Of a stretch of DNA of 64,000 nucleotides, positions 32,524-64,000 are shown one piece after another. Source of the stretch: Hymenobacter cellulosivorans (GTDB taxonomy: Bacteria; Bacteroidota; Bacteroidia; Cytophagales; Hymenobacteraceae); contig NZ_CP095049.1 of NCBI RefSeq assembly GCF_022919135.1, positions 1,926,501 to 1,990,500 of the forward strand, in the 5' to 3' direction. How positions within the stretch are numbered: position 1 is the first letter of the stretch; each line of letters starts with the position of its first letter. The notes under the pieces were generated by a model. It searched no databases and was not told the origin of the DNA. It was given only the letters and a program-made list of their open reading frames with translations. The translations under genes were made by a program, and so were the position numbers.

Positions 32524-32738
32524 ATAGTAAATCTTCATTATATAGGTAAACAATAAATTTAATTTTAGTTAGATTAATGGTTTTAGCAATTAAGTAAAAT
32601 TTTGATTACCATAGGTTTACGATGGTGTTAAAATTTAATAAATAATGTTGTTTTTTATATATAATACTGGATGATTTGCCAGTGGGTATTATAGCAAGGA
32701 TAAGAATTATCCTAAATTAAGCCAAAGCCCTACTAGCC

Positions 32739-60232: not shown

Positions 60233-60251
60233 ATTTAAAATTATTCTAAAT
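60233..60251. promoter_or_regulatory. 19-bp dyad (operator 1) upstream of the heme operon
   Basis: ATTTAAAATTATTCTAAAT is symmetric at eight of nine base pairs. It matches operator 2 at 14 of 19 bases and sits just upstream of the -33 box. It recalls metal-repressor boxes of the Fur/DtxR type. Confidence 0.6.
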
Positions 60252-60256
60252 AAGCC

Positions 60257-60286
60257 TTGCGGGCTATTCGTAACGCCATACATTTG
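60257..60286 (+). promoter_or_regulatory. Complete Bacteroidota promoter of the heme uptake operon
   Basis: TTG (60257-60259), a 19-bp spacer and TACATTTG (60279-60286) fit the -33/-7 consensus. The predicted start of transcription is near 60293, which coincides with operator 2. The leader is about 100 nt. Confidence 0.75.
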
Positions 60287-60292
60287 AGCGCT

Positions 60293-60311
60293 GTTTAGAA
60301 TATGTCTAAAC
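60293..60311. promoter_or_regulatory. 19-bp dyad (operator 2) at the heme operon transcription start
   Basis: GTTTAGAATATGTCTAAAC has perfect 7-bp outer arms (GTTTAGA/TCTAAAC) around ATATG. Its centre is 60 bp from operator 1. A repressor here would block transcription start. Confidence 0.65.
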
Positions 60312-60394: not shown

Positions 60395-62530
60395 ATGCGT
60401 TACGCTGCTACTTTCTGCTTTCTGCTGGCTTGCCCGGCCCGGGTGTGGGCTCAGCAGCTGGTACCCGGCGCGGCCGACAGTACTATGCGCCACCTGAGTC
60501 TGCGGGAAGTAGTAGTGACGGCCACGCGCACCGAGCGCGCCCTGACCGACGTGCCGATTCCGGTGACGGTGGTGAGTCAGCAGCAAATCAGGGCCATGGG
60601 CGCGCTCCGGCTCGGCGACGTGCTGCGGGAGCAAACCGGCCTGACGACCGTCAATGACCACGGTCAGGGTATTCAGATGCAGGGCCTCAACCCCGAATAC
60701 ACCCTGATACTGGTGGATGGCGAGCCGCTGATTGGGCGCACGGCGGGCACCCTTGAACTCTCGCGGGTGGCCGTGGGCAACATTCAGCGGGTGGAAGTGG
60801 TGAAAGGCCCGGCTTCGGCCCTGTGGGGCTCGGAGGCATTGGCCGGCGTAGTCAACATTATTACCGACAAGCCCCAACCCGGCACTCGCGGCGACCTGCG
60901 CCTGCGCTACGGCACCAACGGCACCCTGGACGCGGGCGGCACTTTCAGCACCAAGGGCGAGCGGCTGGGCCTGAGTGTATTCGGGAACCGTTATAGTTCG
61001 CAGGGCTACACGCTGGGTGCCACCAGCAATGGGCCCACCGTGCCACCCTTTGCCAGCTACACCGCCCAGAGCCGCCTGACGTACCAGCTCGGTGCCCGCA
61101 CCAATGTGAGCCTGGGCGGCCGCTACTTCACCGAAAGCCAGACCAGTGACCTGACCGTGAGTGGCGAAACCGGTGGCCCGGCGGCCGTACGGGCCACTTC
61201 CCGGCAGTACGATTACAACCTGACGCCGGTACTCACGCACCGCTTTACTGATCAGCTCCTCACGACGGTCCGGCTTTACCACAGCGGCTACCGCACCCGG
61301 GAAAAATACACCTACCACACCGACGGCCAGCTCTACGACGAATCGTATTTCCACCAGACGTTTACCCGGCCCGAGCTGCAAGCTGATTGGCAGCTGCGGC
61401 CCAACCAAACCCTGACTACGGGAGTGGGCTACCTGCTCGAAACGGTGGAAGCCACCCGCTACGAGCAGCGCCAGCAGCTGCGGGCTCACTTTCTGTACGC
61501 CCAGCACGACTGGCTGCTGACGGAGCGCCTGAACCTGGTGCTCGGGGCGCGCTACGACGGACACAGTCAGTACGCCGGGCAGTTTAGCCCCAAGGTGTCG
61601 GGGCGCTACCAGGTGCGGCCCTGGCTGGCGGTGCGGGGCTCGGCCGGCCGGGGCTACCGGGCCCCCGATTTTCGCCAGCTCTACCTGAATTTCTCCAACC
61701 CCGTGGTAGGCTACAGCGTGTTTGGCACCAATCAGGTGCGGGCTAAAGTAGCCCAGCTGGCTGAGCAGGGCCAATTGGCTATTGACGGCGAAACCGGCCG
61801 GCCGGTAGTGTACGAGGCGGTACTGGCCCAGGCCAGCGGCCTGACGGCCGAAAGCTCGGTGGCCTACAACCTGGGCTTGCAGCTCGACTCCAACGAGAAA
61901 ACCCGGCTGACCCTCAATGCTTTCCGCAACGACCTGCGCAACTTGATTGAAACCGCCACGGTGGCTTTGAAAACCAATGGGCAGGCCGTGTACTCCTACC
62001 GCAACGTGACGCGGGCCTACACCCAGGGCCTGGAAGCCGACGGGCGCTACCGCCTTACGCCCCAGCTCACGCTCAGCGGAGGCTACCAACTGCTGTTTGC
62101 TAAAGATAAGAGCGTGGTCGATAAGCTGGCGGCCGGCACGGTGTACCGCAAAGACCCACAAACCCAGGAAACCCAGCGCGTGACGCCCGAGGACTACGGC
62201 GGCCTGTACAACCGCTCCCGCCACTCCCTCAACGTCAAGGCCTTTTACGAAAACACCCGGGCGGGCTGGTCGGCTAGTGCGCGGGGCATCTACCGGGGCC
62301 GCTACGGCTTCGGCGACCTGAACGGCAACACCATCCTGGACGCCGCCGCCGAGTACGTGCCCGGCTACTGGCTGCTAAACGTGGCGGCGGCCAAAACCTT
62401 CCGGCAGCGCCTGAGCCTGCAGGCCGGCATCGACAACGTGTTGAACTACACCAACCCGACCTACATCAGCACTTTGCCTGGCCGCCTGTATTACGCCAGC
62501 CTGGCACTGGAGCTGGGTAAGCGCCCCTGA
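60395..62530 (+). CDS. TonB-dependent receptor, probably for heme
   Basis: 711 residues. A signal peptide (about 1-20, ending VWAQ) is followed directly by the plug domain: REVVVTATRTERALTDVPIP is the TonB box region, then DHGQGIQMQGLNPEYTLILV and VEVVKGPASALWGSEALAGV. The barrel continues to a C-terminal aromatic strand (RLYYASLALELGKRP). There is no carboxypeptidase-like N-terminal domain, unlike SusC proteins. With a HmuY-like protein and a heme-type binding protein downstream, heme or hemoprotein is the likely ligand. Iron regulation is suggested by the dyads at 60233 and 60293. Confidence 0.92.
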   Translation: MRYAATFCFLLACPARVWAQQLVPGAADSTMRHLSLREVVVTATRTERALTDVPIPVTVVSQQQIRAMGALRLGDVLREQTGLTTVNDHGQGIQMQGLNPEYTLILVDGEPLIGRTAGTLELSRVAVGNIQRVEVVKGPASALWGSEALAGVVNIITDKPQPGTRGDLRLRYGTNGTLDAGGTFSTKGERLGLSVFGNRYSSQGYTLGATSNGPTVPPFASYTAQSRLTYQLGARTNVSLGGRYFTESQTSDLTVSGETGGPAAVRATSRQYDYNLTPVLTHRFTDQLLTTVRLYHSGYRTREKYTYHTDGQLYDESYFHQTFTRPELQADWQLRPNQTLTTGVGYLLETVEATRYEQRQQLRAHFLYAQHDWLLTERLNLVLGARYDGHSQYAGQFSPKVSGRYQVRPWLAVRGSAGRGYRAPDFRQLYLNFSNPVVGYSVFGTNQVRAKVAQLAEQGQLAIDGETGRPVVYEAVLAQASGLTAESSVAYNLGLQLDSNEKTRLTLNAFRNDLRNLIETATVALKTNGQAVYSYRNVTRAYTQGLEADGRYRLTPQLTLSGGYQLLFAKDKSVVDKLAAGTVYRKDPQTQETQRVTPEDYGGLYNRSRHSLNVKAFYENTRAGWSASARGIYRGRYGFGDLNGNTILDAAAEYVPGYWLLNVAAAKTFRQRLSLQAGIDNVLNYTNPTYISTLPGRLYYASLALELGKRP

Positions 62531-62566: not shown

Positions 62567-63208
62567 ATGCATTACCTGTTTTTCCGCACTGCCCTGCTGG
62601 CCGTAGCCGCTGCTTCCACGCTCAGCCTGACTTCCTGCGACCAAGACGACGACCAGACTGAAACGGCCGTGAAGCCCGCTCTGCAGGCCAAAACCGTGAC
62701 TAGCCTGGCTCCGCAGTCGGCTGTCCCAACCAGCACCGGCCAGCCCGGCACACCCCGGCACTTCACGTTCTACAGTCTCGCCGACGGCAAGGAAGTGCCC
62801 TACACCGACTCGACCAGCACCAAGTGGGACCTGGCTTTCCGGGGCACGACCATCCTGACCAACAGCGGCAGCAGCGGCCCTGGGCAGGGTGGGGCCCAGG
62901 TGAAAGACGGACTGTTTGCGGAGCTGACCACGGCCCCAGAAACCGGCTATGCCGTGGATGCCGCCGCGGCCAAAGCTATTCCCACGGGCTCGGGCAAGGG
63001 CTGGTACAACTACAATTCTACCACCCACGTGGTGTCGCCCATTGCCGGCAAGGTGCTGGTCATCCGGACGGCTGCCGGCAAATACGCCAAGCTGGAAGTG
63101 ACCAACTACTACAAGGACGCCCCAGCTACGCCTGCCGGTACCGAACCCAGCGGCTACTACTCGTTCCGCTACGTGTACCAGCCCGACGGCAGCCGCAACC
63201 TGCAATAA
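62567..63208 (+). CDS. HmuY family heme-binding lipoprotein
   Basis: 213 residues. The signal MHYLFFRTALLAVAAASTLS followed by LTSC gives the lipid-modified Cys24. The mature part has the HmuY fold pattern: RHFTFYSLADGKEVPYTDST, TKWDLAFRGTTILTNSGSSG, GGAQVKDGLFAELTTAPE, GKGWYNYNSTTHVV and YKDAPATPAG with YYSFRYVYQPDG at the end. HmuY takes heme from hemoproteins and hands it to the TonB receptor. The gene lies 36 bp after the receptor gene on the same strand, an operon arrangement. The heme-coordinating residues could not be aligned with certainty. Confidence 0.88.
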   Translation: MHYLFFRTALLAVAAASTLSLTSCDQDDDQTETAVKPALQAKTVTSLAPQSAVPTSTGQPGTPRHFTFYSLADGKEVPYTDSTSTKWDLAFRGTTILTNSGSSGPGQGGAQVKDGLFAELTTAPETGYAVDAAAAKAIPTGSGKGWYNYNSTTHVVSPIAGKVLVIRTAAGKYAKLEVTNYYKDAPATPAGTEPSGYYSFRYVYQPDGSRNLQ

Positions 63209-63302: not shown

Positions 63303-64000
63303 ATGCTTCTTCGTTTTTCCACTTTCCTCAAAGCCGGCCTGCTGCTGGGCCTGTTACTGCTGAGCGTAGCCAGTCGGGCCGCTGCGCCGGTGCGCATCGT
63401 GTCGCTCAGCGGCACGGTAAGCGAAATTATCTGTGACCTGGGCCTGCAAAGCCAGCTGGTGGGTGTAGACGTAACCAGTACGTTTCCGGCGGCCCTGACC
63501 AAGCTGCCCAAGGTAGGCCACAACCGCAACATCTCGGCCGAGGGCGTGCTGGCCCTGAGCCCGACCATCGTGGTGGGTACCACCGAATCGTTGAAGCCCG
63601 AAGTGGTGAGCCAGCTGAAGTCGGCCGGCATTACGGTGCAGCTGTTTACCCAGGAATACTCGGTAGCGGGCACCAAAAAACTGATTCAGCAAGTGGCCGC
63701 CACGTTTAATGCCTCGGCCAAAGCCCCGGCCCTGCTGCAAAAGCTGGACGCCGATTTGGTCAAAATCCGCAAGCCCGCCAAGGCGCCTAAGGTGCTGTTC
63801 ATTTACGCCCGGGGCAGCGGTACGATGATGGTAGCGGGCCAGAACACGCCCCTGGAAAAGGTTATCGGGCTGGCCGGCGGGCAAAACGCGGCTACCGGCT
63901 TCACCGACTTCAAACCCCTGACCGCCGAAGCCCTGGTAGCTGCCAACCCCGACGTGCTCCTGCTCTTCGACAGCGGCCTGGAAAGCCTGGGCGGTAAGGC
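63303..64000 (+). CDS. Hemin ABC transporter substrate-binding protein (C-terminus cut by window edge)
   Basis: 232 codons are present; the C-terminal part runs off the window. A signal peptide (MLLRFSTFLKAGLLLGLLLL to ASRAA) is followed by the periplasmic-binding fold of the HmuT/HutB/BtuF type: RIVSLSGTVSEIICDLGLQS, LPKVGHNRNISAEGVLALSP, TIVVGTTESLKPEVVSQLKS, VLFIYARGSGTMMVAGQNTP, LEKVIGLAGGQNAATGFTDF and LVAANPDVLLLFDSGLES. A Tyr in IYARGSG is in the position used to bind heme iron in such proteins. It is 94 bp after the HmuY gene; the permease and ATPase genes are expected to the right. Confidence 0.9.
   Translation, partial: MLLRFSTFLKAGLLLGLLLLSVASRAAAPVRIVSLSGTVSEIICDLGLQSQLVGVDVTSTFPAALTKLPKVGHNRNISAEGVLALSPTIVVGTTESLKPEVVSQLKSAGITVQLFTQEYSVAGTKKLIQQVAATFNASAKAPALLQKLDADLVKIRKPAKAPKVLFIYARGSGTMMVAGQNTPLEKVIGLAGGQNAATGFTDFKPLTAEALVAANPDVLLLFDSGLESLGGK

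Follow-up and report, generated by a model that had tools for sequence, protein, structure and literature searches.

Two Fur-type boxes around the promoter of a heme-uptake operon in Hymenobacter cellulosivorans: a predicted iron switch

Which metal regulator controls the heme-uptake operon of Hymenobacter cellulosivorans, and what is the role of the two similar dyads that enclose its promoter? The locus lies in the window, the 64,000-nucleotide stretch of DNA analyzed here, and its features are collected in Table 1. Our analysis located both dyads where the original prediction had placed them and returned the same 60-bp distance, between their starts as well as between their centres. The two dyads had also been said to share 14 of 19 bases. 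This holds when one dyad is inverted; read directly, the identity is 13/19, so the earlier figure was the inverted count. TTG-N19-TAnnTTTG is the -33/-7 promoter consensus of Bacteroidota, and the promoter claimed for this locus is present as TTG-N19-TACATTTG. The predicted transcription start lies under the second dyad.

Table 1. Promoter elements and genes of the heme-uptake locus, in window coordinates
Feature	Position	Strand	Basis
Fur-type box 1, upstream, ATTTAAAATTATTCTAAAT	60233..60251	.	Sequence match; 6/7 arm pairs
TTG, -33-like element	60257..60259	+	Present in sequence; conserved at hmuR loci
-7-like element TACATTTG	60279..60286	+	Present in sequence; TAnnTTTG conserved at hmuR loci
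Fur-type box 2, downstream, GTTTAGAATATGTCTAAAC, over predicted transcription start	60293..60311	.	7/7 arm pairs
TonB-dependent receptor, HmuR-like	60395..62530	+	Pfam TonB_dep_Rec_b-barrel + Plug
HmuY-like protein	62567..63208	+	Pfam PF14064, 1.6e-14
Periplasmic binding protein, truncated by window end	63303..63998	+	PF01497

The operon that follows the two boxes is a heme-uptake set. Its genes run in the order TonB receptor, HmuY, periplasmic binding protein, FecCD permease, ABC ATPase and HemS/ChuX, with the permease, ATPase and HemS/ChuX genes located downstream of the window (locus L028: PF01032, PF00005 and PF05171/PF06228). The best NCBIfam model for the HmuR-like receptor is TonB-hemin, which it matches with 165 bits, below the cut-off of 317.

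A lone dyad of this kind is commonplace by itself. The window contains 127 dyads of the form 7-5-7 with at least 6/7 pairs, and 60 Markov-1 null sequences contain 104.5 on average. A pair of equally alike dyads within 120 bp occurs once in the window and at all in 7/200 null sequences, with thresholds that were chosen after the pair was known; with 14 direct identities as the threshold, the window scan does not recover the pair. Conservation in relatives decides the question and is the strong evidence for the dyad pair.

A protein search (E up to 1e-100) identified 15 hmuR loci in 14 of the 61 Hymenobacter genomes. In every one of the 15, the promoter is flanked by a pair of boxes with a spacing of 58-61 bp. 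TAnnTTTG is present in 15/15 of these loci and is preceded at N19-20 by TTG in 14, L093 being the one that has no TTG. Mean pairwise identity among the 14 distinct hmuR promoters is 0.83 for box 1, 0.90 for box 2 and 0.91 for the -7 element, as against 0.31 for the N19; the boxes and the -7 element are conserved, whereas the 19-bp spacer is not. Box 1 precedes TTG by 5-6 bp and TTTG precedes box 2 by 6-8 bp. The near-constant spacing of the boxes would be fixed by the promoter between them (5-6 bp, N19-20 and 6-8 bp). The box-to-promoter distances would thus account for the spacing with no need for direct contact between dimers.

Do similar boxes occur at other iron genes? With 1 mismatch allowed, TTTARANNNNNTYTAAA proved too loose: its 30 matches in the H. 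cellulosivorans genome are no excess over the 27 in the control. We therefore adopted the tighter motif TTTAGAATNATTCTAAA, which was counted at up to 2 mismatches against a reversed-pattern control. Across the 61 Hymenobacter genomes it matched 225 times forward versus 34 times in the control, with at least one match in 59 genomes. The H. cellulosivorans genome has 7 matches versus 1 in the control (16 versus 7 at 3 mismatches). These seven sites are located at hmuR (two), a 798-aa TonB receptor (TBDR798; two), an 840-aa TonB receptor (TBDR840; one), the feoAB region (one), where FeoB was called from Pfam and FeoA from reading alone, and a multihaem cytochrome c gene with an inferred start codon (one). 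Weaker sites lie upstream of an 839-aa TonB receptor (TBDR839) and of a DUF6686 protein. Paired boxes were found in this genome at the DUF6686 gene (spacing 59), TBDR798 (58), TBDR839 (31) and feoAB (98). In other Hymenobacter genomes, the site adjoins a relative of one of these target proteins at 24/29 loci, a test that is partly circular because the query proteins were first found through the motif. The motif is thus present at other iron genes of related genomes, a point on which the original prediction had staked itself. A motif site at 32700 of the window was rejected as a member of this set, as it is intergenic and not linked to iron in our analysis. Two genomes count against the pairing of Fur and motif: G032 has a Fur orthologue and no site at 2 mismatches, and G014, an assembly in pieces, has motif sites and no Fur match that we could find.

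Two of these targets have features of their own. The DUF6686 protein (L029:4047-4492), with its paired Fur-type boxes, recurs near such sites in relatives (L055, L057, L062 and L072), where it is sometimes divergent from a TonB receptor. The multihaem cytochrome c gene (L032:2512-4005) adjoins ribosomal protein S6 and has a conserved single Fur-type site, which accounts for 9/29 of the genus loci (L049, L050, L053, L054, L058, L060, L070, L071 and L074).

The identity of the boxes is indicated by work on Riemerella anatipestifer. In the available part of that study, the Fur box is given as ATTTAGAATTATTCTAAAT, a 19-bp palindrome, and the hmuR box is listed as ATTTAAAATTATTCTAAAT (PMC5609570). 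Box 1 is identical to this hmuR box at 19/19 positions and to the consensus at 18/19; box 2 agrees with the consensus at 14/19 positions read directly and 15/19 inverted. Purified Fur bound the R. anatipestifer hmuR promoter in an EMSA (PMC5609570), and a near-identical box at rhuB was bound by Fur with a Kd of 4.3 nM (PMC10986502). As far as these partly accessible sources go, Fur binds and contributes to hmuR control in R. anatipestifer. A Bacteroidota-specific metal box had been the second option of the original prediction, and it is the one that agrees with the published box. Our search of the literature on DtxR or Fur in Bacteroidetes returned no paper on a Hymenobacter Fur, most subscription journals being outside its coverage.

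The H. cellulosivorans genome has four matches to the Fur family, namely the likely Fur (157 aa; PF01475, 1.7e-29; its matches to NCBIfam Fur models stay under the cut-offs) and three further proteins. Orthologues of this Fur were found in 59/61 Hymenobacter genomes and appear whole in 58; the exception, G012, is broken by stops. This partial match (G012:C1:2142277-2142576) contains two stop codons in a single-contig genome, and may reflect the loss of fur or an error in sequencing. An AT-rich dyad-like site was also seen around position 4075 of L044 (G000:C1:3921274), at the start of a PerR-like Fur-family gene that adjoins a peroxiredoxin. The boxes match ATTTAGAATTATTCTAAAT, they recur at iron-uptake promoters in this genome and its relatives, and a Fur orthologue is present; most likely, the dyads are Bacteroidota-type Fur boxes, not DtxR/MntR boxes.

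DtxR/MntR-type boxes have a general form with the half-sites TTTAGR/YCTAAA, and the boxes at hmuR and at mntH have identical half-sites. The regulator itself is also at hand, as a DtxR-family protein is encoded in 61/61 Hymenobacter genomes; the only one in H. cellulosivorans (C1:4126832) carries a FeoA domain. With DtxR-family proteins in 61 genomes and Fur in 59, regulator presence does not separate the two. The spacer argues against a shared regulator: when TTTAGR-Nx-YCTAAA was searched with x from 0 to 10, x was 4 upstream of mntH in 30/30 loci (taken from the 61 genomes) and 5 at hmuR in 15/15 loci, with no other spacer and no crossing, so that the DtxR/MntR-type box TTTAGR-N4-YCTAAA occurs in 0/15 hmuR promoters. 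In addition, the best NCBIfam model for C1:4126832 is the manganese-dependent MntR, at 170.6 bits and below its cut-off of 350. The available part of the R. anatipestifer study cuts both ways, since it reports a fur-independent iron response but also Fur binding to a promoter with the identical 19-mer (PMC5609570). On balance, we consider it very improbable that the boxes belong to C1:4126832. The view that they are closer to the DtxR/MntR type gives way here: the box equals the published Fur box (PMC5609570, as far as available), and the DtxR/MntR-type box of the genus has a 4-bp spacer and stands before mntH.

The mntH locus deserves mention in its own right. Over the genus, the N4 pattern was counted 124 times versus 67 in the control, a weaker excess than that of the Fur-type motif. 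Of the 30 loci, 23 have another N4 site in the 400 bp that follow mntH, and the ORF after mntH matches the TonB receptor of the H. cellulosivorans genome in 26/30. In that genome, mntH and the TonB-dependent receptor that follows it (L041:4072-7859; G000:C1:322071-325858) each have a TTTAGR-N4-YCTAAA box, which suggests a manganese regulon that includes an importer in the outer membrane. MntR would be the reader of the N4 box. The site at 322049 before mntH was rejected as a member of the Fur motif, as mntH bears the box with the 4-bp spacer. We tentatively suggest, with rather less than even confidence, that the unrelated regulators Fur (iron) and MntR (manganese) share the near-identical half-sites TTTAGR/YCTAAA, that a 1-bp difference in spacer (5 versus 4) together with the inner bases separates their regulons, and that one-base slips would shift genes between them.

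For the hmuR promoter, we predict from sequence and conservation, with a probability of about 0.78, that the Fur protein of this genome uses both dyads as operators, and that Fe-Fur on both would shut the heme-uptake promoter until loss of iron releases it. When iron is sufficient, an Fe-Fur dimer bound to box 1, which immediately precedes the -33 element, would block the upstream edge of the promoter, and a dimer on box 2, over the transcription start, would block initiation. With both boxes occupied, RNA polymerase would be kept off the promoter. As iron falls, Fur would leave the boxes and the heme-uptake operon would be made. Fur binding, repression and the use of both boxes in H. cellulosivorans are thus predicted from comparative analysis. 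The compact two-site iron or heme switch first proposed for this operon is supported as a predicted switch, with Fur in place of a DtxR-like protein.

Two modifications of this scheme must be weighed. Fur could act on the boxes while a second iron or heme input co-controls the operon. In R. anatipestifer, iron restriction raised hmuR expression 7.89-fold in the wild type and 8.44-fold in the fur mutant, and fur deletion in the presence of iron raised it only 2.64-fold (PMC5609570, Table 4); for hmuY, a 7.69-fold iron response remains in the fur mutant (PMC5609570; both as given in the available part). Since the iron response of hmuR survives the loss of fur there, another iron input may exist, and the H. 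cellulosivorans genome has the three further Fur-family matches. However, what holds in Riemerella need not hold in Hymenobacter, and we regard a second input as possible but unlikely. Alternatively, only one box may be used, the other being weak or auxiliary. The Riemerella table, in its available form, lists a single hmuR box (PMC5609570), and several targets in the H. cellulosivorans genome have one close match only. Both boxes were nevertheless kept in 15/15 hmuR loci while the spacer between the promoter elements was not, and we think the use of a single box less likely still than a second input.

Searches beyond the genus were also performed. Over the family, the pair pattern gave 50 forward matches in 44/204 genomes versus 14 in the control (tallied from rows), and 24 of the 50 fall on just two of the 31 possible spacings, 59 and 60. 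Hairpins and chance matches are to be expected among the others because the pair pattern is an inverted repeat. Sixteen loci from the 24 were examined: nine are hmuR-like by their first residues, six match TBDR840 and one (L118) is neither. Class-wide, the pair-plus-promoter pattern showed no clear excess (76 versus 63 in the control, tallied; 59/395 genomes). Two full boxes were present in 7 of the 30 class-wide loci examined, three in the genus and four outside it, the latter with spacings of 57, 57, 72 and 80. Among the matches listed for the exact Fur-type 19-mer in genome contigs, a search that had no composition-matched control, 100/117 loci carry Bacteroidota titles, 16 carry others and 1 is unassigned; in only 19 of these 117 listed loci does a neighbour match the proteins tried.

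In conclusion, the hmuR box pair is most likely, in the main, a well-built example of a known Fur iron switch. The spacer comparison with DtxR/MntR-type boxes, which have the hmuR half-sites in common but differ by one base pair (4 bp at mntH versus 5 bp at hmuR), raises a simple testable question that merits experiments: by what means are two metal sensors kept apart when their sites look so alike? Among known heme systems, the hmuY/hmuR operon of Porphyromonas gingivalis is bound by PgFur, a Bacteroidota Fur homologue, which is like the Fur reading proposed here; PgFur, however, is described as non-canonical and as not binding iron, and the available part of that account contains no Hymenobacter-like box that we could find (PMC6613475). 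The RhuB promoter of R. anatipestifer has a Fur-bound box, ATTTAGAATTATCCTAAAT, before a hemin receptor and so resembles the Hymenobacter boxes, but its receptor differs from the HmuR-like one and the accessible text mentions no two-box layout (PMC10986502). The closest parallel is hmuR/hmuY of R. anatipestifer, the same kind of operon with the same 19-bp palindrome, box 1 being letter-identical to its hmuR box, although that species belongs to another class-level lineage (PMC5609570, available part). Our results extend this experimentally supported Fur box to Hymenobacter, where it stands at genes for heme and ferrous-iron uptake and for other TonB receptors. In contrast to the one hmuR box in the accessible R. 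anatipestifer table (PMC5609570), two boxes flank the Hymenobacter promoter, and this fixed geometry, a Bacteroidota promoter clamped between a pair of boxes, merits follow-up.
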